A stretch of 64,000 nucleotides of DNA from Candidatus Nitrosocosmicus oleophilus (GCF_000802205.1 NZ_CP012850.1:2878587-2942586); one strand, 5' to 3'. Counted from the stretch's first letter, positions 45 through 53,954 are shown. The notes: a model not told the origin generated them from the letters alone. Program-made: numbers and translations.

Positions 45-3000
45 TTATATTCTCGATGGTTTGACTACCGCTTTCGCTTGAGCCTGTTGAACCTGTGCTA
101 CCTGTTGTTCCTGAACCTGTGCTACCTGTTTGACTACCGCTTTCGCTTGAGCCTGTTGAACCTGTGCTACCTGTTGTTCCTGAACCTGTGCTACCTGTTG
201 TTCCTGAACCTGTGCTACCTGTTGTTCCTGAACCTGTGCTACCTGTTGTTCCTGAACCTGTGCTACCTGTTGTTCCTGAACCTGTGCTACCTGTTGTTCC
301 TGAACCTGTGCTACCTGTTGTTCCTGAACCTGTGCTACCTGTTGTTCCTGAACCTGTGCTACCTGTTGTTCCTGAACCAGCGGTGCCTGTTTGACTACCG
401 CTTTCGCTTGAGCCTGTTGAACCTGTGCTACCTGTTGTTCCTGAACCTGTGCTACCTGTTGTTCCTGAACCTGTGCTACCTGTTGTTCCTGAACCTGTGC
501 TACCTGTTGTTCCTGAACCTGTGCTACCTGTTTGACTACCGCTTTCGCTTGAGCCTGTTGAACCTGTGCTACCTGTTGTTCCTGAACCTGTGCTACCTGT
601 TGTTCCTGAACCTGTGCTACCTGTTGTTCCTGAACCTGTGCTACCTGTTGTTCCTGAACCTGTGCTACCTGTTGTTCCTGAACCTGTGCTACTGTTGTTC
701 CTGAACAGCTGTTTTGACTACCGCTTTCGCTTGAGCCTGTTGAACCTGTGCTACCTGTTGTTCCTGAACCTGTGCTACCTGTTGTTCCTGAACCTGTGCT
801 ACCTGTTGTTCCTGAACCTGTGCTACCTGTTGTTCCTGAACCTGTGCTACCTGTTGTTCCTGAACCTGTGCTACCTGTTGTTCCTGAACCAGCGGTGCCT
901 GTTTGACTACCGCTTTCGCTTGAGCCTGTTGAACCTGTGCTACCTGTTGTTCCTGAACCTGTGCTACCTGTTGTTCCTGAACCTGTGCTACCTGTTGTTC
1001 CTGAACCTGTGCTACCTGTTGTTCCTGAACCTGTGCTACCTGTTGTTCCTGAACCTGTGCTACCTGTTTGACTACCGCTTTCGCTTGAGCCTGTTGAACC
1101 TGTGCTACCTGTTGTTCCTGAACCTGTGCTACCTGTTGTTCCTGAACCTGTGCTACCTGTTGTTCCTGAACCTGTGCTACCTGTTGTTCCTGAACCTGTG
1201 CTGTCAGAGGAATCACTACCTGAACCTGTGCTGTCAGAGGAATCACTACCTGAGCCTGTGCTGTCAGAGGAATCACTACCTGAGCCTGTGCTGTCAGAGG
1301 AATCACTACCTGAGCCTGTGCTGTCAGAGGAATCACTACCTGAGCCTGTGCTGTCAGAGGAATCACTACCTGAGCCTGTGCTGTCAGAGGAATCACTACC
1401 TGAGCCTGTGCTGTCAGAGGAATCACTACCTGAGCCTGTGCTGTCAGAGGAATCACTACCTGAGCCTGTGCTGTCAGAGGAATCACTACCTGAGCCTGTG
1501 CTGTCAGAGGAATCACTACCTGAGCCTGTGCTGTCAGAGGAATCACTACCTGAGCCTGTGCTGTCAGAGGAATCACTACCTGAGCCTGTGCTGTCAGAGG
1601 AATCACTACCTGAGCCTGTGCTGTCAGAGGAATCACTACCTGAGCCTGTGCTGTCAGAGGAATCACTACCTGATTCGGTCCCTTGGCCTGCACTAATACT
1701 ACCGCTATTATCTTGGTTTTGTACTGCGAAATTGTTACCTGAACTAAGGTCATCAATTCCACCTCCAAAGCTCTTCTGCTCATCTGAAGAATCATTGTCG
1801 GAACTTACTTGTTCGGGACCGCTAGACTCTTCACTATTTTGAATCGGAGATCCGGATACGGCTTGATCCATTGATTCGACTTCTGACCTATTAGAATTTA
1901 CATTTGGCTGATCACTACCATGGCATAGACCATTTGGTAGTGAAACACTACAATTATTGTCCTTATATTCATTATTGTTTATGTTTGTCGGTAATCCGTT
2001 TGCGTTATTGATATCTATCTCATTGCCCTGTGCTAAATTGTTAAAGGTAGCGTTATTATCTTGACTTTGGGCATCGATGAATATACCGTTTAAGGAGTCC
2101 TTAACAGTATTCAAATAAATATCATTGTTATCAGAGTCGACTAACGCCGTACCTCCTAATTCATTAGATTTGAGTAAGTTCGTATCTATGCTTGAATTTG
2201 ACGATGAATATGCTACAATCCCGATGCTATTGTTAGTCAATCGGTTATCTTCGATAGTAGAATCAGTAGAACTTGTTACAAATACTCCAACGTGATTGTC
2301 CGAAAAGTCTATTTCAGAAATACTATTGTTTTCTCCTCCTGTCGATAAGATTCCTGCTTGAAATTCTGAAATTGTTCCAGGACCTTCGACAGTTACATTC
2401 TCAGTATTGGTAAGCATTACTCCTATTTTTGAACTATTTTGACTTGGACCAGTAACTGAAAAGCCGTTCAAATCGATCGTGATATCGTCGCCGCCGACAA
2501 GTAGTCCATCACTTTTACAATTAAGATTAGATGTCAATACTACACTCTCCTCAATTACTTGTCCACAGGAAATACTAGGAACACTAGATTCAGGTGTTTC
2601 AAAAGGATTATTTGTTATGGGGCCGGCAACTTCGTTACTGTTCTCAGTATTGAAACAGTTATCGTAACTTGCAGTATTTTTAGGTTTGCTAGTATCATCG
2701 CTTATGCTATCAATCTTACTAGAAGTAGTTGGTGCTGGTGGAGGTGTTATTACTTTACCTGTTTTTCCGCTAGGCTTAGAATCAGTATTTGAGGATGCAC
2801 TACCATCGCTTGAAGAACTTGCAACTGCTTCAGAACCGGCCGAGGAACTTGCTGAACCTTTACTATCGCTTGAGGATCCTTTACTATCGCTTGAGGATCC
2901 ACTACCGTCGCTTGAGGATCCACTACCGTCGCTTGAGGATCCACTACCGTCGCTTGAGGATCCACTACCGTCGCTTGAGGATCCACTACCGTCGCTTGAG

Positions 3001-3605
3001 GATCCACTACCATCGCTTGAGGATCCACTACCGTCGCTTGAAGAACTTGCAACTGTTTCAGAACCAGCCGAGGAACTTGCTGAACCTTTACTATCACTTG
3101 AGGATCCACTACCGTCGCTTGAGGATCCACTACCGTCGCTTGAGGATCCACTACCGTCGCTTGAAGAACTTGCAACTGCTTCAGAACCAGCCGAGGAACT
3201 TGCTGAACCTTTACTATCACTTGAAGAACTTGACGACCCTTTACTCCCACCAGAGTTGGTGCTGTCATCGTTTATGCTATCAATCTTACTAGAAGTAGTT
3301 GGTGCTGGTGGAGGTGTTATTACTTTACCTGTTTTTCCACTAGGCTTAGAATCAGTATTTGAGGATGCACTACCGTCGCTTGAAGGATTATTGTCATCAT
3401 CTATCGTTTCAGGTTTGTCTTGACCATTTTGTAAAGTTTCCGAGGTTTCATTTTCGTTACATAAGATATCTCGTAGGGAACCTAGAGAATTGCTATCATA
3501 ATATTGTGCTGCTACACTATTATTTACTGAAATGGTGGATGCATTAAAAGTTAGTAACAATACAAGAAATATGACTGGAATTATGCTATTCTTCTTATTT
3601 ATCAA
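45..3605 (-). CDS. Giant secreted repeat protein: beta-helix plus Ser/Gly/Asp/Thr stalk (adhesin-like), frameshifted and partial
   Basis: The start is a TTG at 3605; the first 33 residues form a signal peptide. Residues about 55-330 are Ser/Gly/Asp repeats (SDGSGSS units and a duplicated Pro-rich block with PPPAPTTSS). Residues about 355-560 look like a right-handed parallel beta-helix of the NosD/PbH1 kind (LTNNSIGIVAYSSSNSSI style turns). Then follow 16 copies of SDSSDSTGSG and many GSGTTGST units. At about 691-692 one base is missing from a 24-bp repeat unit, so the last ~215 residues switch to a Gln/Val-rich frame (VAQVQEQQ) and stop at 45. In the unshifted frame the repeats stay open to base 1 with a sensible non-repeat tail, so the intact gene extends beyond the window. 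Probable role: surface attachment or matrix protein; this is inferred from architecture only. The shift could be genuine, phase-variable, or an assembly error in repeats. Confidence 0.8.
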   Translation of the reverse strand: MINKKNSIIPVIFLVLLLTFNASTISVNNSVAAQYYDSNSLGSLRDILCNENETSETLQNGQDKPETIDDDNNPSSDGSASSNTDSKPSGKTGKVITPPPAPTTSSKIDSINDDSTNSGGSKGSSSSSSDSKGSASSSAGSEAVASSSSDGSGSSSDGSGSSSDGSGSSSDSKGSASSSAGSETVASSSSDGSGSSSDGSGSSSDGSGSSSDGSGSSSDGSGSSSDGSGSSSDGSGSSSDSKGSSSDSKGSASSSAGSEAVASSSSDGSASSNTDSKPSGKTGKVITPPPAPTTSSKIDSISDDTSKPKNTASYDNCFNTENSNEVAGPITNNPFETPESSVPSISCGQVIEESVVLTSNLNCKSDGLLVGGDDITIDLNGFSVTGPSQNSSKIGVMLTNTENVTVEGPGTISEFQAGILSTGGENNSISEIDFSDNHVGVFVTSSTDSTIEDNRLTNNSIGIVAYSSSNSSIDTNLLKSNELGGTALVDSDNNDIYLNTVKDSLNGIFIDAQSQDNNATFNNLAQGNEIDINNANGLPTNINNNEYKDNNCSVSLPNGLCHGSDQPNVNSNRSEVESMDQAVSGSPIQNSEESSGPEQVSSDNDSSDEQKSFGGGIDDLSSGNNFAVQNQDNSGSISAGQGTESGSDSSDSTGSGSDSSDSTGSGSDSSDSTGSGSDSSDSTGSGSDSSDSTGSGSDSSDSTGSGSDSSDSTGSGSDSSDSTGSGSDSSDSTGSGSDSSDSTGSGSDSSDSTGSGSDSSDSTGSGSDSSDSTGSGSDSSDSTGSGSDSSDSTGSGSDSSDSTGSGTTGSTGSGTTGSTGSGTTGSTGSGTTGSTGSTGSSESGSQTGSTGSGTTGSTGSGTTGSTGSGTTGSTGSGTTGSTGSGTTGSTGSTGSSESGSQTGTAGSGTTGSTGSGTTGSTGSGTTGSTGSGTTGSTGSGTTGSTGSGTTGSTGSTGSSESGSQNSCSGTTVAQVQEQQVAQVQEQQVAQVQEQQVAQVQEQQVAQVQEQQVAQVQQAQAKAVVKQVAQVQEQQVAQVQEQQVAQVQEQQVAQVQEQQVAQVQQAQAKAVVKQAPLVQEQQVAQVQEQQVAQVQEQQVAQVQEQQVAQVQEQQVAQVQEQQVAQVQEQQVAQVQEQQVAQVQEQQVAQVQQAQAKAVVKQVAQVQEQQVAQVQQAQAKAVVKPSRI
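60..1199. repeat. 24-bp tandem repeats with interspersed 33-bp-like variants, coding for GSGTTGST
   Basis: The core unit on the + strand is 24 bp (contains cctgttgttcctgaacctgt) and is repeated dozens of times, interrupted several times by a block containing gactaccgctttcgcttgag that codes for STGSSESGSQ. Larger blocks of core units plus interruption are themselves duplicated. One unit at 687-700 lacks a single C, which shifts the minus-strand reading frame. Confidence 0.95.
1201..1680. repeat. 30-bp tandem repeat, 16 copies, coding for SDSSDSTGSG
   Basis: The unit begins ctgtcagaggaatcactacc and recurs every 30 bp for 16 copies with nearly no variation (one A/G difference in the first unit and the last unit ending differently). 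It codes for a Ser-Asp stalk on the minus strand. Such near-perfect homogeneity implies recent expansion or ongoing homogenization. Confidence 0.95.
2697..3384. repeat. 21-bp SDGSGSS repeats flanked by a ~120-bp long direct repeat
   Basis: Between about 2860 and 3160 a 21-bp unit (cttgaggatccactaccgtcg) recurs in two blocks, coding for SDGSGSS. The block is bracketed by two near-identical ~120-bp copies, 2697-2815 and about 3266-3384, that code for the Pro-rich linker. Recombination between the long copies would delete the whole N-terminal stalk in frame. Confidence 0.9.
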
Positions 3606-5753: not shown

Positions 5754-5828
5754 GGGCTGGTGGTTCAGCTTGGTACGAACGTTCGATTCGCAATCGAGAG
5801 ATCGCGGGTTCAAATCCCGCCCAGTCCA
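5754..5828 (+). tRNA. tRNA-Ala (anticodon CGC)
   Basis: All arms fold: acceptor GGGCTGG/CCAGTCC with the G3:U70 pair that marks alanine tRNAs, D stem GTTC/GAAC, anticodon stem TTCGA/TCGAG with loop TTCGCAA, 5-nt variable loop, and T stem GCGGG/CCCGC with loop TTCAAAT. The discriminator base is A and no CCA is encoded. There is no intron in the anticodon loop. Confidence 0.97.
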
Positions 5829-5922
5829 CTTTTGTTGTAGTTATGCGCAAGTCTTCAATTTTTATTTTGATTTATTCCAATCTTAGGCATATTTTACTCT
5901 CTTTTATAGAAACTTTGGAACC

Positions 5923-6412
5923 ATGATGCAACAAAGAAGTGGCATAATAATCAATATCAGTTCAATGCCGAGATTAGCAGGAATTCCCTCTCAATCAGTT
6001 TATTCTGCTACAGAATTTGTAGTACAGGGAAGGGTAAAGCCTCATCATACATATTGGAGCCTTTTGGAATCAAAGTGATATTGATTGAACCTGGAGTAAC
6101 AAATACAAAATTCGTACAAGATATAGTCGTTTCTACTAATAAGTATGAAGAAGACAAAAATGGGGATCGAATTAACCAGATTGATGAAAACAATAAGGAT
6201 GTCCAATTATCTTTTTACAATGATACAATGAAAAAATTCTTGGCGTTTTACTTTAAAGCAATGAGTATAGTGTTTCATCCACGGGTGTTGCAGATGAAAT
6301 AATCCATAGCATTGAATTGGTCTATAATGAATTAAATGCTGCTAATTGTCGTGTCCTAAGACTCATAGTTGGAAATGATTCAAAAAATATTCATAGCTTA
6401 AAAAATATCTGA
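5923..6412 (+). pseudogene. Decayed short-chain dehydrogenase/reductase
   Basis: Three reading-frame fragments together match the C-terminal half of a classical SDR. The first (from ATG 5923) has IIINISS followed by YSATEFVVQG, the place of the YxxxK catalytic motif, but with Glu instead of Lys. The second frame supplies EPFGIKVILIEPGVTNT. The third, ending at TGA 6412, starts STGVADEIIHSIE. The N-terminal NAD-binding Rossmann half and the segment joining the first two fragments are missing. The remnant lies directly downstream of tRNA-Ala. No function can remain. Confidence 0.8.
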
Positions 6413-6628
6413 TAAATAGTGAATTTTATACAATGTTAAAAATTGATTAATTAAAATAGATGAAAGCAGTCTTAGATTGGATAATGTATTTCAAAAATTT
6501 CATGATGTAAAATTAATACTTACATATTTTTTAATGGACGTCTTTATGTAGTAGCAGAGGTTTGAATAATTGTAACCTGATCGTAATTGAAAACTTGGTA
6601 TAGGTATTCTCTTTTATACTGGTTTTAG

Positions 6629-7261
6629 TCATTGTGTATTAACAAGAAGAAAATCAATAATTTTGTCTATTTTCTGTATATCTGCACCATAAATTTTTCT
6701 AAGGTATTCAAGGCCAGACAGGTGTTCCTCTTCTGAAAATGCTTGCATCCCATCCTCTGCTATTACTATTTTCAATCCTCTTGTAAAAGCATCGTATGAT
6801 GTATGTTTTGCGCAAATATGTGTATGTATTCCAGTAATAATTATTGTGTCGACGCCTTTTCCATCATACGCACTGGTTAAAGCTCTGTCTAAGTTAGTTC
6901 TATCAAACGCGCTATAGGTTCTTTTCGTGATAACGCTATCATTCTTAAGAGGTTTCAACTCCTCAATAATTTGCTGTCCAACGGTACCTTTCATTGCATG
7001 AGGTCCCCATAAGTCTAATTCATATCTATCAGTGGGAAGATGTTCATCTACACAATAAAAGATAGGAATTTGAGCATTCCTAGCGAAATCCAATAAAGTG
7101 CTGATATTTGGAATAATCTCTAACGCCCGCTCGCATTTTAAGCTACATTTAATAAAATCATTCAACATGTCCAATACTAAAATTGCATATCTTGCCAGGT
7201 TTTTCTCACACCAAGATAATACTTTAGTACTTGATATTTTCCTTTCTAATATTGATAACAT
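6629..7261 (-). CDS. pncA: Isochorismatase-family hydrolase, probable nicotinamidase
   Basis: This 210-residue cytoplasmic enzyme probably hydrolyses nicotinamide to nicotinate and ammonia. The cysteine-hydrolase triad is visible: Asp31 in VLDMLNDF, Lys113 in TKRTYSAF and Cys150 in HTHICAKHT. The residues that bind metal in nicotinamidases are also present (D72-x-H74 and H89 in the W-x-PH segment), which favours nicotinamidase over other isochorismatase-like hydrolases. About 25 residues precede the first strand. It lies 343 bp downstream of, and on the same strand as, nicotinate phosphoribosyltransferase, the next enzyme in NAD salvage. The substrate call rests on motif plus neighbour. Confidence 0.8.
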   Translation of the reverse strand: MLSILERKISSTKVLSWCEKNLARYAILVLDMLNDFIKCSLKCERALEIIPNISTLLDFARNAQIPIFYCVDEHLPTDRYELDLWGPHAMKGTVGQQIIEELKPLKNDSVITKRTYSAFDRTNLDRALTSAYDGKGVDTIIITGIHTHICAKHTSYDAFTRGLKIVIAEDGMQAFSEEEHLSGLEYLRKIYGADIQKIDKIIDFLLVNTQ

Positions 7262-7604
7262 ATGGTATCTTGATGCTTATAATTAGGCTTGATTCCAAAA
7301 GATCTTATGATAACTTACCAATATGATTATTGCATGAATGAATTAGATAAATCTGAGATAGTAACATTCTATAGATTTATCTATTTAAAAAATTAACAGT
7401 AGAGGAAGGTATGATCTTTATTTTAACATCTAGAAGACTTTTTGTTAAACCCTTTTCAGATAGCGGCCCAAACTTTCCCTTATCTGACCAGCAGATGCAA
7501 AATATAGATTAAAGAATTATAAATGAATAAAGAACCAGATGGGAGATACAAAACATAGTTATAATAAGAACAATATGCAATTGTTGATGATTCTTATATT
7601 AACT
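7262..7604. other. Intergenic between the NAD salvage genes, 343 bp
   Basis: I see no coding frame or RNA. The length suggests that the nicotinamidase gene has its own promoter rather than being tightly co-transcribed with the upstream phosphoribosyltransferase gene. Confidence 0.4.
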
Positions 7605-48031: not shown

Positions 48032-48558
48032 TATTTTATTAATTCGTTAATTAATTAAGATATCTAAAGACTCATGATATTTCCCTTGGGATTGATATCT
48101 GAATCTTACAGAGACTTGCATTTTAATGACATTTTTCCTCTTCGTATAGAATATCATGATGTCATAACTTTATTATTTATTATTTTATAGTATTACAACT
48201 AGAAACGTTAAAAGCAAGTGGCCCTAAATAAAGTTCAAAGATTGATATGATTTTTAGCTAATTTATTCTATTATCAAATTTAGAATTTGTTCTAATTTAG
48301 ATAAAATTCACTGCAACAAGAATTCTATGTTTTAAATCAGCAAAAGGTGAAGATAAATCAATATACATGTCTTCCTATATGGGTACAGGCTCGATAAGTT
48401 TAAGGTCATTAGTAATAAATGAAATTTTAATAAACAAAATGTGTTTTCATTTTCAAAGAATCTTGAAAACGTTGAATGTAATTATGGGAGTTTATGATCT
48501 TGAGATCCGACGCTTATAAGACAAGATGTTGATGGATTAATACAATAATATCCATACA
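48032..48558. other. Intergenic between divergent genes, ~530 bp
   Basis: I see no RNA or coding frame. The region immediately before the tyrosinase start has no ATG in the correct frame. Confidence 0.45.
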
Positions 48559-49425
48559 TTGTCATTAGTATTGCAAAATCTTTTATATTATTTAATAAAT
48601 AACAGTTCATTGTCAAGCAACAATAGCGTAGTAATTATAAGAAAGAATATCAGCAATTATCTTCCTAATGAATTACTAGAATTTAGAAATGCTATGGAAA
48701 AATTTATGGCAATAAGAGACAACAGAGGTTACAACCATATCGCAGGATTTCATGGAGCTCCTGATTTCTATTGCTGGCACCATCAACGAAATGATAGAAC
48801 GGTCTTAAGGGCCAGGCTTTTTTTACCATGGCATCGAGCTTATTTAAAATATTTAGAGGACCATCTACGAGATTCCAATACACAAGTTTCTCAACCTTGG
48901 TGGGATCCTAGTTCCCCGCTCTCTCACAGAGAAGGCATTCCAAAGTCATATAGTGCACTGACAATAAACCGCAAAAAGAATCCGTTATCTAGTTTTCGCA
49001 TATTTGTACCTAGGTCTTCTGTTCCAGGTTTACCGAACATTACTTTAGATGAAGATTCTTTCCGAGATCCGAGTCCTCCTTCTGAATTACCGGAACCTTC
49101 AATTGTAGACTCACTATATGAAGAGGAAGATTTTGGAATATTCAGTGACAAGCTGGAGGATTATCATGACAGAATTCATGTTTGGTGTGGAGGGTCAATG
49201 GCGGACGTCATAACCGCGGGGTTTGACCCTATTTTTCATGCTCATCACTGCAACATAGATAGAATATGGTGGATTTGGCAATTACGGCATGGAAACTCAA
49301 CAATGCCAAGTAACATATTAGATCTTCCTCTTCCGCCTTTTAATTATACGGTAAAAGATGTTCTTAATATTTATGATTTAGGATATGACTACGCCACCGC
49401 AAGTGCCGAGGTGGTAACAGGGTGA
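48559..49425 (+). CDS. Tyrosinase-type type-3 copper protein (catalytic domain)
   Basis: The 288-residue protein has both copper sites. CuA: H65 (GFHGAP), H74 (CWHH) and H92 (LPWHRAYL), with Cys72 two residues before H74, placed for the Cys-His thioether of many type-3 copper enzymes. CuB: H203 and H207 (YHDRIHVW), and the pair H229/H230 (FHAHHCNIDRIWWIW). It should oxidise phenols or catechols with O2. No signal peptide is visible. The start is a TTG (48559); no ATG occurs before residue 46. Its stop overlaps the start of the next gene by 4 bp, which supplies the C-terminal domain. Confidence 0.9.
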   Translation: MSLVLQNLLYYLINNSSLSSNNSVVIIRKNISNYLPNELLEFRNAMEKFMAIRDNRGYNHIAGFHGAPDFYCWHHQRNDRTVLRARLFLPWHRAYLKYLEDHLRDSNTQVSQPWWDPSSPLSHREGIPKSYSALTINRKKNPLSSFRIFVPRSSVPGLPNITLDEDSFRDPSPPSELPEPSIVDSLYEEEDFGIFSDKLEDYHDRIHVWCGGSMADVITAGFDPIFHAHHCNIDRIWWIWQLRHGNSTMPSNILDLPLPPFNYTVKDVLNIYDLGYDYATASAEVVTG

Positions 49426-49967
49426 ACAAGATGAGTAAAAGCAACAAGAAGAGGAATAATAAAAAAATGGATAGCTTGAGTGGTAGAAAGGTCGGCAATA
49501 TTTTTTCTAGCCCACGCATCAAACTGAATTGGATCAAAGAAGAGACTGAATTTTATAGAGCAGATATTGAATTTTTTGGTATTGACATCTCCGGACCATC
49601 ATATGAGGGAAGGGTATTCCTCAATAATCCAAAAGCAGATGAGAAAACCGAATTAAACCTTGATAATGGTTATGCTGGATCCTATTATATTTTCGGACAT
49701 GGCGGATGCTATGGTGATGCAGGGCATTGTGACATAAAGCCGCGAAGAACTTTTGACTCAAGAACAGAACATGACCTGACCCCCGCTTACAAATCAATGA
49801 TTGCAACCGAACCAATAAAAAAAATATTGAAAACTACAAAGGAGATTGTGATTAGCGTCGTTCCGATCTCGGCAAGAAGCGCCAGGATGAGTAACGCCAA
49901 AGATATGGTGTATATAGATAAAATAAGGATTAGTTGCTATGAAAATTACTCAAAGTTAAATAAGTAG
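49422..49967 (+). CDS. Detached C-terminal domain of tyrosinase/polyphenol oxidase
   Basis: The 181-residue protein opens with a Lys/Asn-rich stretch (about 1-25), then a beta-sandwich: EFYRADIEFFGIDISGPSYE, GRVFLNN, GYAGSYYIFGHGGCYGDAGH. This sequence pattern is what follows the catalytic domain in some tyrosinase-family proteins, where the domain covers the active site or aids copper loading. The GTG start overlaps the tyrosinase stop (GTGA), so translation is coupled. I infer that the two chains form one enzyme. A split by recent frameshift is possible but the Lys-rich linker and good overlap argue for a stable two-gene form. Confidence 0.7.
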   Translation: MNKMSKSNKKRNNKKMDSLSGRKVGNIFSSPRIKLNWIKEETEFYRADIEFFGIDISGPSYEGRVFLNNPKADEKTELNLDNGYAGSYYIFGHGGCYGDAGHCDIKPRRTFDSRTEHDLTPAYKSMIATEPIKKILKTTKEIVISVVPISARSARMSNAKDMVYIDKIRISCYENYSKLNK

Positions 49968-49991
49968 CAAAGCAAAGACTAGTCTAACAGA

Positions 49992-50384
49992 TTGGACAAT
50001 GTTGAAATAGCAATAGAGAAAGAATCACACGATAACATTGATCCTAGTTATTCTCTAAAAATAACCACCAACGGTACAGTCGAATTTAAGGGAACAGCGA
50101 ACGTAAAAAATGGGGGTAAACATACCCTTAAGATCTCCCAGGATTTGGTAGCAGAAATAGTCGATAAATTTAACATGATTTATTTTTTTTCTTTAAAGGA
50201 CAAGTATTTATCACCGGCTGGTCCAGAATCCCAAGAAACTAAGACTGTAATTTCTGTACGGGTAGGCGACAAATTTAAAAAAATAGAATATTCCAATAAA
50301 GGTAAAGCCCCTCATAGCCTTGATTCTTTGGTATCTCAGGTAGGAAAAATTACAAAAATTGATCAATTCATACAAAGTCAATGA
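49992..50384 (+). CDS. DUF6438-like protein
   Basis: The 130-residue protein resembles DUF6438: SLKITTNGTVEFKGTANVKNGGKHTLKIS, then a helix EIVDKFNMIYFFSLKDKY, then SVRVGDKFKKIEYSNKG and a final helix. The usual C-x-G-x-C-P motif before the first strand is missing (NIDPSYSL). No signal peptide. TTG 49992 is the first usable start; it begins 24 bp after the tyrosinase-partner gene and probably shares its transcript. Function unknown. Confidence 0.6.
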   Translation: MDNVEIAIEKESHDNIDPSYSLKITTNGTVEFKGTANVKNGGKHTLKISQDLVAEIVDKFNMIYFFSLKDKYLSPAGPESQETKTVISVRVGDKFKKIEYSNKGKAPHSLDSLVSQVGKITKIDQFIQSQ

Positions 50385-50585
50385 AATAAAAAAGGATATA
50401 ATGATGGTCTTTTCTTGATATATCTGCAAAAATAGAACCAATAAGAAATATTTGAATTTTCAACAATATACAAAAGATGGAAACTAAAATAGAGCGGCGA
50501 AAGAGTGCTCCGCTCATTTTTTCTAGTATATTCAAAGCTTTTATGACTTACCTAAATAAGCTATCTTGCAAATTAAGATATACTG

Positions 50586-51800
50586 ATGAGTTATACTATA
50601 AAAGAGGCCAGTACTACAAGACACAAAGAATCTAGAAATATAGAAAATGTTCTTGTCATGCAAGGGGGTGGCTCTCTAGGGGCTTTCGCTTGCGGCGTGT
50701 TTAAGGCATTGGTAAAACATAAGGTTCAGATTGACATAGTTGCAGGTACTTCTATAGGTGCAGTCAACGCAGCCCTAATAGTTGGAAGTAAATCCGGGCA
50801 TCCAGAAAAAGACCTTGAAGATTTTTGGCTTGAAATTGGTGAAAGCAGCATTGAAATCATTCCAGATTTATGGGTATATGGGTGGAACAGTAGAGCCAGA
50901 ACTTATGTGCCTAAGACCATTTCATCCGCTTCTGCAAATGCGGCCTTTTTTGGAGTTCCCAAAATGTTTATCCCAAGATGGCAGTGGTGGAATACTAGTA
51001 AAAACTTTCATGGCATGATGGGTGGGCTGGAAGAACAGTATTTTGATCCTAGAAACTGGACATTTATTTATGACCACTCCCCTTTAGTAGGGACTCTAGA
51101 GAAATACATTGATTATGGAAAATTAAATCTTGCAGCAACAAAAGAAGAGTTGCGTTCTGTATTGAGATTAATTATCACAGCAGTGGATGTTATGACTGCC
51201 AAGCCACTTATTTTTGATAATACATTGATGAAAATAAAACCAGAACACATTCTAGCAAGTTCAGGATATCCAATATATGGATTTCCTTGGGTTGATTTAG
51301 GAAATGATATTAAAGCATGGGATGGAAGCTTACTTAGCAATACTCCAATAAGAGAGGTACTCTATGTGTCTCCACGAAATGACAAGAATATTTTTATTGT
51401 TGAAAACTATCCACAAAGAATTGACAGTCTTCCTTCCAATTTCATAGAAGTGGTAAATAGATACAAGGACATTTTATTTTGTGATAAAGATATTGAAAGC
51501 ATAAAAAATGCAAGATTAGTTACTAGACATATTAAACTAATTGAGAAACTATATGATATATTTGACAAGCAAGTTGATCATTCCACACTAAGCAAGGAGG
51601 AAAGAAATGATATCCGAAGTGAGTATAAAGACTTGATTGAAAATTATGGTGCAGAAATTAAATCTGTTACCAGAATAATTAGAAGTGAAATCGAATCGCC
51701 TTCGATCCTAAAGAATAGTGATTTTTCTAGTACCACAATTAGGGAGTTGATAGAGCAAGGTGAAAGGAAAACTGAAGAAAAGTTAGAAAAAATACGATGA
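50586..51800 (+). CDS. Patatin-like phospholipase
   Basis: The 404-residue lipid acyl hydrolase has the oxyanion loop QGGGSLGAF (26-34), the nucleophile GTSIG (54-58, Ser56) and the catalytic Asp in the WDGSLLSNTP motif at about residue 241. A Trp-rich insertion (about 105-155, WQWWNTSKNFHGMMGGLEEQ) is typical of the NTE-like/patatin family with a lid. The C-terminal 120 residues are helical and charged. No signal peptide, so it is a cytoplasmic or peripheral enzyme acting on membrane lipids. ATG 50586. Confidence 0.92.
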   Translation: MSYTIKEASTTRHKESRNIENVLVMQGGGSLGAFACGVFKALVKHKVQIDIVAGTSIGAVNAALIVGSKSGHPEKDLEDFWLEIGESSIEIIPDLWVYGWNSRARTYVPKTISSASANAAFFGVPKMFIPRWQWWNTSKNFHGMMGGLEEQYFDPRNWTFIYDHSPLVGTLEKYIDYGKLNLAATKEELRSVLRLIITAVDVMTAKPLIFDNTLMKIKPEHILASSGYPIYGFPWVDLGNDIKAWDGSLLSNTPIREVLYVSPRNDKNIFIVENYPQRIDSLPSNFIEVVNRYKDILFCDKDIESIKNARLVTRHIKLIEKLYDIFDKQVDHSTLSKEERNDIRSEYKDLIENYGAEIKSVTRIIRSEIESPSILKNSDFSSTTIRELIEQGERKTEEKLEKIR

Positions 51801-53627: not shown

Positions 53628-53954
53628 GTGGGAATAGCGACTTCATATCCAATACCGACTCCCGACTTTGAAGATAGTGCGAATAAAAGCACCACCGGAC
53701 ACAAGATCTCATTCAATCTCCAGAAACATAAACTATCTCCAATAACCTATACGAGCGACGATGAAGGCTTGTATGACAATGAAGTGTCCGAAGAAATATC
53801 AAATATTAAGAGTAATTCAGAAAAGTTAGAATCCAAACTAGATCTTAAAATAAAGGAACTAGATCTTAAAATAAAGGAACTAGATCTTAAAATAAAGGAA
53901 CTAGATCTTAAAATAAAGGAACTAGATCTTAAAATAAAGGAACTAGAACATTAG
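53628..53954 (+). CDS. Small coiled-coil protein with perfect heptad repeats
   Basis: The 108-residue protein (GTG 53628) has a polar N-terminal half without domains and a C-terminal coiled coil made of five identical heptads LDLKIKE plus LEH at the end. Leucine and isoleucine occupy the a/d positions and Lys/Glu the flanking positions, ideal for a parallel dimer or trimer. The next gene, 59 bp downstream, codes for a membrane protein and may be its partner. No family recognised. Confidence 0.6.
   Translation: MGIATSYPIPTPDFEDSANKSTTGHKISFNLQKHKLSPITYTSDDEGLYDNEVSEEISNIKSNSEKLESKLDLKIKELDLKIKELDLKIKELDLKIKELDLKIKELEH
53838..53942 (+). repeat. 21-bp tandem repeat, five identical copies (one heptad each)
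   Basis: The unit ctagatcttaaaataaagga plus one base recurs exactly, starting at 53838 with period 21. Each unit equals one coiled-coil heptad, so copy-number change by slippage alters coil length without breaking frame. Confidence 0.96.

Follow-up and report, generated by a model that had tools for sequence, protein, structure and literature searches.

Gene organisation and the catalytic gene

The window, i.e., the whole 64,000-nt stretch of the Candidatus Nitrosocosmicus oleophilus genome that was analysed (source genome: one contig of 3,430,706 bases), contains a group of four genes located on the same strand. They encode a type-3 copper tyrosinase (ORF1), a detached domain homologous to the C-terminal part of longer tyrosinases and referred to here as the lid (ORF2), a DUF6438 protein (ORF3) and a patatin-like phospholipase (ORF4) (Table 1).

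Table 1. Coordinates of the genes and sequence elements at the tyrosinase locus, counted from the first nucleotide of the window.
Feature	Position	Strand	Remarks
ORF1, predicted catalytic subunit, type-3 copper tyrosinase	48559..49425	+	PF00264; TTG start uncertain; 288 aa
CuA region H65...C72-W-H74...H92 with Cys-x-His thioether motif	48751..48837	+	Invariant in 7 two-gene homologues
CuB region H203-D204-R-I-H207...H229-H230	49165..49248	+	HisB1+1 = Asp
Shine-Dalgarno sequence GAGGTG	49408..49413	+	8 nt before the ORF2 GTG; GAGGTGAT in G013
GTGA overlap, ORF1 stop/ORF2 start	49422..49425	+	4 nt; identical in G013 and G012
ORF2, detached C-terminal (lid) domain	49422..49967	+	GTG start, 181 aa; homologous to the fused rhizobial C-terminal domain
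Invariant loop F91-G-H93-x2-C96-x-G-x2-G-H102-C103	49692..49730	+	Alignment of 11 sequences; proposed plug/copper-handling site
ORF3, DUF6438 (PF20033)	49992..50384	+	Pfam 2.1e-17
ORF4, patatin-like phospholipase	50586..51800	+	Pfam 1.3e-22

The sequence of ORF1 places it in the tyrosinase family, as the match to PF00264 in the Pfam search (1.1e-31, 111.3 bits) lay well above the cut-off of 22.6. All six copper-binding histidines were identified (H65, H74 and H92 for CuA; H203, H207 and H230 for CuB) and, together with the C72-W-H74 motif, they were unchanged in the alignment of seven homologues, in agreement with an earlier note on this DNA, in which complete CuA and CuB ligands and a CWH thioether motif had been described. 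C72 corresponds to the thioether cysteine near HisA2 and a covalent bond is predicted for this motif. The protein ends at a Y-x-Y motif (Y276-D-Y278), which closes the catalytic cores of this family. The oxidation of phenols or catechols by O2 is the predicted activity, and the Asp at HisB1+1, also found in known tyrosinases (PMC11608171), is compatible with an action of ORF1 on monophenols as well. Among the proteins of the PDB, ORF1 matched mollusc haemocyanins best (5.5e-154 as the sum over 8 repeats).

It is uncertain where ORF1 starts, because the proteins of other genera begin at an RKN motif, which is found at about residue 28 of ORF1. A jump in nucleotide identity with the G013 genome was observed at about position 48556, and dS was low in the first 26 codons (0.10 vs. 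0.43, few sites). The segment 48556–48640 is possibly a leader or regulatory element instead of, or besides, a coding sequence.

A C-terminal domain encoded by a separate gene

ORF2 begins with a variable basic linker of about 22 residues and had neither a Pfam match at E ≤ 1 nor an NCBIfam match. A tblastn search of plasmids revealed residues 64–151 of ORF2 within 'tyrosinase family proteins' of Mesorhizobium and Rhizobium, with 39–43% identity. The rhizobial enzymes are 665–666 aa long and the region matching ORF2 was located behind the catalytic domain, at residues 519–645 of the 665-aa proteins (36% identity, E 1e-17). The comparison of the ORF2 family profile with the rhizobial C-terminus gave 100% probability, the rhizobial sequence being itself a member of the profile. 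The combined archaeal and rhizobial lid profile also reached the C-terminus of the tyrosinase encoded on p42d of R. etli CFN 42 (E 3.6e-5), which was outside the profile; R. etli is listed among the species with zymogen tyrosinases (PMC9454253). No relation to ORF2 could be detected for the C-terminus of the R. leguminosarum tyrosinase of locus L021. The earlier note had recognised in the second gene a domain that elsewhere is fused behind tyrosinase, and the position of the match in the rhizobial proteins bears this out.

A more distant relationship was found to the plant polyphenol oxidases (PPOs). The joint profile of the core end and the lid aligned full-length tomato PPO (PDB 6HQI) into its C-terminal domain (E 2e-7). 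The lid profile alone scored 11.0 bits on this stretch, compared with a maximum of 6.9 bits among 2000 shuffles (1809 scored); as the stretch was picked because it aligned, this score was treated as supporting evidence only. Taken at sequence level, these data give a weak indication of homology between ORF2 and the C-terminal domain of tomato PPO. AlphaFold, run on the ORF2 sequence alone, reached a pLDDT of 32 and no solved homologue was found for ORF2 alone, and the fold proposed for ORF2 thus derives from sequence comparison.

Within the F-G-H-x2-C-x-G-x2-G-H segment, F91, H93, C96 and H102 were invariant in 11 sequences of ORF2 homologues, and the subsequent C103 was kept in all but G013, in which R was found. 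The same Cys/His loop is present in the fused rhizobial domains and hence does not distinguish the split form. The fungal CXXC motif as such is absent from ORF2, and the aligned plant PPO stretch does not contain the Cys. In the viral contigs and phages scanned, the ORF2 domain was not found, and a tyrosinase alignment scan of viral contigs gave no match. An annotation gap of a Rubrobacter marinus plasmid (L020, 3001–3120) contains a short lid-domain fragment that includes the FGHGGCCGDAGHC motif; this fragment has no adjacent tyrosinase gene and looks like a gene remnant.

The lid profile was searched in 70 genomes of the family and in 400 genomes of Nitrososphaerales. Among the latter, the domain was detected in seven genomes at eight loci, belonging to three genera of one family. 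All eight copies were separate genes directly behind a tyrosinase gene, with open frames of 166–192 aa. The junctions varied: a GTGA overlap occurred in the three Nitrosocosmicus loci and a 1-nt overlap in G404, the genes were separated by 24 nt in G402, 12 nt in G412 and 29 nt in G411 (C652), and the second pair of G411 showed either a 4-nt overlap or a downstream ATG start behind a Shine-Dalgarno-like site. No fused archaeal form was found in the 400 Nitrososphaerales genomes searched; the fused form was found in rhizobial plasmids, the bacterial side of the comparison being drawn from plasmids. ORF1 and ORF2 are both under purifying selection (dN/dS of 0.089 and 0.080, respectively, relative to G013), and ORF2 is probably made by coupled translation.

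These results uphold the main proposal of the earlier note, i.e., a tyrosinase divided between two genes overlapping by GTGA, the second of which codes for the detached C-terminal domain. That note had named a fused gene in close relatives, with the overlap as a lone frameshift, as the finding that would speak against it, and had called for a search of two-gene and fused forms. The search returned only the two-gene form in Nitrososphaerales, at eight of eight loci and with varying junctions, and the conservation of the split in three genera rules out a lone frameshift or a sequencing error.

Distribution and neighbouring genes

PF00264 proteins were present in 4 of the 349 genomes sampled from the phylum, compared with 15 of 70 for the family and 5 of 15 for the genus. 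The rarity of tyrosinases in archaea, assumed in the earlier note, was thus confirmed for the phylum sample but not for the family. In the phylogenetic tree, which is rough as the bootstrap did not converge, the paired tyrosinases formed one clade (bootstrap 85) and were grouped with the rhizobial enzymes (99/97), and the f2-family enzymes of the order were placed outside this clade. Within the family, a lid gene accompanied every tyrosinase of the paired clade, and no lid match was obtained at the other tyrosinase loci examined. The presence of an adjacent lid gene in every member sets the clade apart from the lid-less Bacillus-type tyrosinases, which have neither a lid nor a caddie. The Nitrosopumilus tyrosinases (NkTYR/mTyr-CNK and NsTYR) are likewise PF00264 enzymes of ammonia-oxidising archaea and are entered in a published table as lacking a C-terminal domain (PMC11608171).

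The genome studied here encodes a second, distantly related tyrosinase (C1:300658–301227 of G000; locus L079, 4290–5405), which fell outside the paired clade and had no lid gene or lid match. It is oriented divergently to a patatin gene (5822–7525), about 0.4 kb apart. Another unusual archaeal architecture was noticed in G335, from a different family of the order (L013, 1348–3672), where a tyrosinase is followed in the same frame by a long extension that includes a stretch resembling von Willebrand A (open frame of 979 aa). In the rhizobial loci L017, L018 and L019, the gene of the fused tyrosinase overlaps with that of a multicopper oxidase; the tyrosinase genes of L018 and L019 are, in addition, located upstream of LodA/GoxA quinone-cofactor oxidase genes, so these plasmid genes apparently form an oxidase cluster.

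The earlier note had also placed the pair in a cluster with DUF6438 and patatin genes. The DUF6438 gene was situated directly behind the lid gene in five of the eight two-gene loci and is therefore probably functionally linked to it. As a fixed partner, patatin did not hold up: it directly followed only in the three Nitrosocosmicus loci, and the 200-nt gap between the DUF6438 and patatin genes indicates that patatin may lie outside the operon, probably as a separate transcript. A terminator in this gap was considered and rejected, the predicted hairpin not being conserved in G013 and G012. Patatin genes were nevertheless located near 5 of 21 independent tyrosinase loci, against an expected 0.5–0.7 (P about 1e-4 to 7e-4; a post hoc estimate from one patatin query, with some contigs short), including both tyrosinases of this genome. 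They recurred near otherwise unrelated tyrosinases (L071, L078, L079, L083 and positions 50586–51800 of the window) in differing orientations, which also argues against a fixed operon partner.

Proposed two-subunit mechanism and alternative explanations

The latency of known tyrosinases is imposed by a C-terminal domain of the same polypeptide; in Streptomyces this task falls to a separate caddie protein, which also loads copper (PMC11608171, PMC9454253). In the lids of fungal enzymes, the site is plugged by a Phe, and copper is believed to be brought in by a CXXC loop close by (PMC4157443). We consider it fairly probable that ORF1 and ORF2 form a two-subunit phenol/catechol oxidase, the detached lid of which shields the copper site and helps to load copper. 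ORF1 would be the catalytic core and ORF2 the lid made from its own gene, binding the new, copper-free core. The invariant F91 or a neighbouring residue would enter the active-site entrance as a plug, rendering the enzyme latent, and the loop residues H93, C96, H102 and the mostly conserved C103 are candidates for handling and passing copper. The departure of ORF2 would then give the active enzyme with no protease needed. A strongly hydrophobic N-terminal segment was seen in neither protein (maximum KD19 of 0.72 for ORF1 and −0.19 for ORF2), and the complex is therefore probably cytoplasmic; it would act on phenols or catechols that enter the cell. All of these points, i.e., binding and latency, the transfer of copper, activation and the substrate, are proposed on inference. 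The gating of activity by the detached domain, suggested in the earlier note, is plausible, as known C-terminal domains and the Streptomyces caddie act in this way (PMC11608171, PMC9454253); phenolic detoxification in soil, copper handling and melanin formation, also put forward there, would be possible roles. The fuller claim that the lid serves as a trans-acting subunit for latency and copper loading, that its release and not proteolysis switches a cytoplasmic phenol oxidase and that this arrangement is convergent with the unrelated Streptomyces caddie appears to us evenly balanced.

The closest counterparts are the bacterial zymogen tyrosinases of the 'second architecture', carrying a C-terminal extension, such as those of Rhizobium etli, Verrucomicrobium spinosum and Burkholderia thailandensis (PMC9454253). 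They share with the archaeal pair the homologous core, the thioether Cys near HisA2 and the C-terminal domain homologous to ORF2 (the R. etli p42d enzyme and other rhizobial plasmid enzymes were compared). However, they are single polypeptides with proposed proteolytic activation, whereas the archaeal proteins are encoded by two genes at all eight loci and their activation is proposed to proceed without cleavage. The plant and fungal enzymes (tomato PPO, AbPPO4 and A. oryzae tyrosinase) also have a lid behind the Y-x-Y motif, and in the fungal lids a Phe acting as placeholder is found together with a copper loop containing Cys. These enzymes are fused and activated by proteolysis, and the fungal CXXC differs from the archaeal H-x2-C-x5-H-C loop.

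In the Streptomyces MelC2/MelC1 system, the core and its partner are separate proteins from neighbouring genes. ORF1 and ORF2, overlapping or adjacent on one strand, have a similar caddie-like operon layout, known here from gene order. MelC1 is believed to obstruct the active site and to supply it with copper, and ORF2 may, by analogy, have the same role. In contrast to ORF2, which is encoded downstream and has no Tat-like signal, the MelC1 gene is situated upstream of the core gene and the complex is exported by Tat. The CxH thioether motif of the ORF1 core is a further difference from the MelC2 system. The identification of ORF2 as a MelC1 caddie was rejected, as no PF06236 match was found and ORF2 is homologous to another domain family.

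An unlikely alternative is that ORF2 is a permanent second subunit and not a removable lid, the heterodimer being a constantly shielded, haemocyanin-like binder of dioxygen or copper, or an oxidase of small catechols reached via the covered pocket. The mollusc haemocyanins, the best-scoring solved sequences for ORF1, share with it a compact CuB loop, also carry a thioether bridge (PMC11608171) and have a fixed C-terminal domain, and no protease gene was consistently linked to the archaeal pair. However, the Pfam match, the tree and the ligands put ORF1 among tyrosinases, together with the rhizobial enzymes, and a separate gene would be an odd route to a permanent cap. Mollusc haemocyanins are extracellular oxygen carriers built of repeated fused core and lid units, whereas here a single core has a separate lid, and a cell of 1 micrometre would hardly have an intracellular oxygen carrier.

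It is also quite unlikely that ORF2 acts chiefly as a copper metallochaperone, required a single time during assembly and exerting neither shielding nor control of activity. Such a role would be in keeping with the invariant H/C/H loop and with copper insertion by the caddie (PMC9454253) and the fungal C-terminal domains (PMC4157443), but ORF2 is homologous to lid domains, the known ones both shield and load copper, and the two functions are not mutually exclusive.

Programmed −1 frameshifting that would join both frames into one protein is highly improbable: the frames do overlap, with ORF2 in the −1 frame, but no slippery heptamer could be seen where they do so, ORF2 is equipped with a start and a Shine-Dalgarno site of its own, and the genes of G402, G411 (C652) and G412 are 12–29 nt apart with stops between them. 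The least credible explanation, namely that the pair lacks a joint function and results from decay after a gene fission or from a sequencing error, could draw on the ORF1 of G012, which is broken into pieces, but a neighbouring gene on the same contig is also broken, which points to assembly errors, and the split, already noted as conserved across the genera, is intact in the closed genome and five others with dN/dS of 0.08.

The archaeal two-gene tyrosinase lies outside the three bacterial architectures distinguished in a review (PMC9454253), and the open-access literature searched yielded no account of a tyrosinase lid with a gene of its own besides the Streptomyces caddie. If the proposed two-subunit mechanism is correct, two unrelated domains are used as separate tyrosinase gatekeepers and soil ammonia oxidisers possess a phenol-oxidising capacity. 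Since the core and the lid would be naturally separable proteins, latency, copper loading and thioether formation could be tested by mixing them. Strain MY3 of Ca. Nitrosocosmicus oleophilus has been reported as a pure culture from hydrocarbon-contaminated sediment (3.43 Mb, 34.1% GC; PMC6657660), in which the expression of the gene pair could be followed.

Two repeat-containing genes were additionally noticed in the window. The region 45–3605 on the minus strand encodes a 1186-aa protein rich in Ser, Gly, Thr and Asp, in which a NosD-like repeat region is flanked by long tandem arrays of 24-, 30- and 21-nt units; the region is T-rich on the plus strand, with 49% GC. An ORF of 108 aa at 53628–53954 ends in a perfect 21-nt repeat of 5.3 copies, encoding coiled-coil-like LDLKIKE heptads, and the identity of the units suggests a recent expansion of this array.
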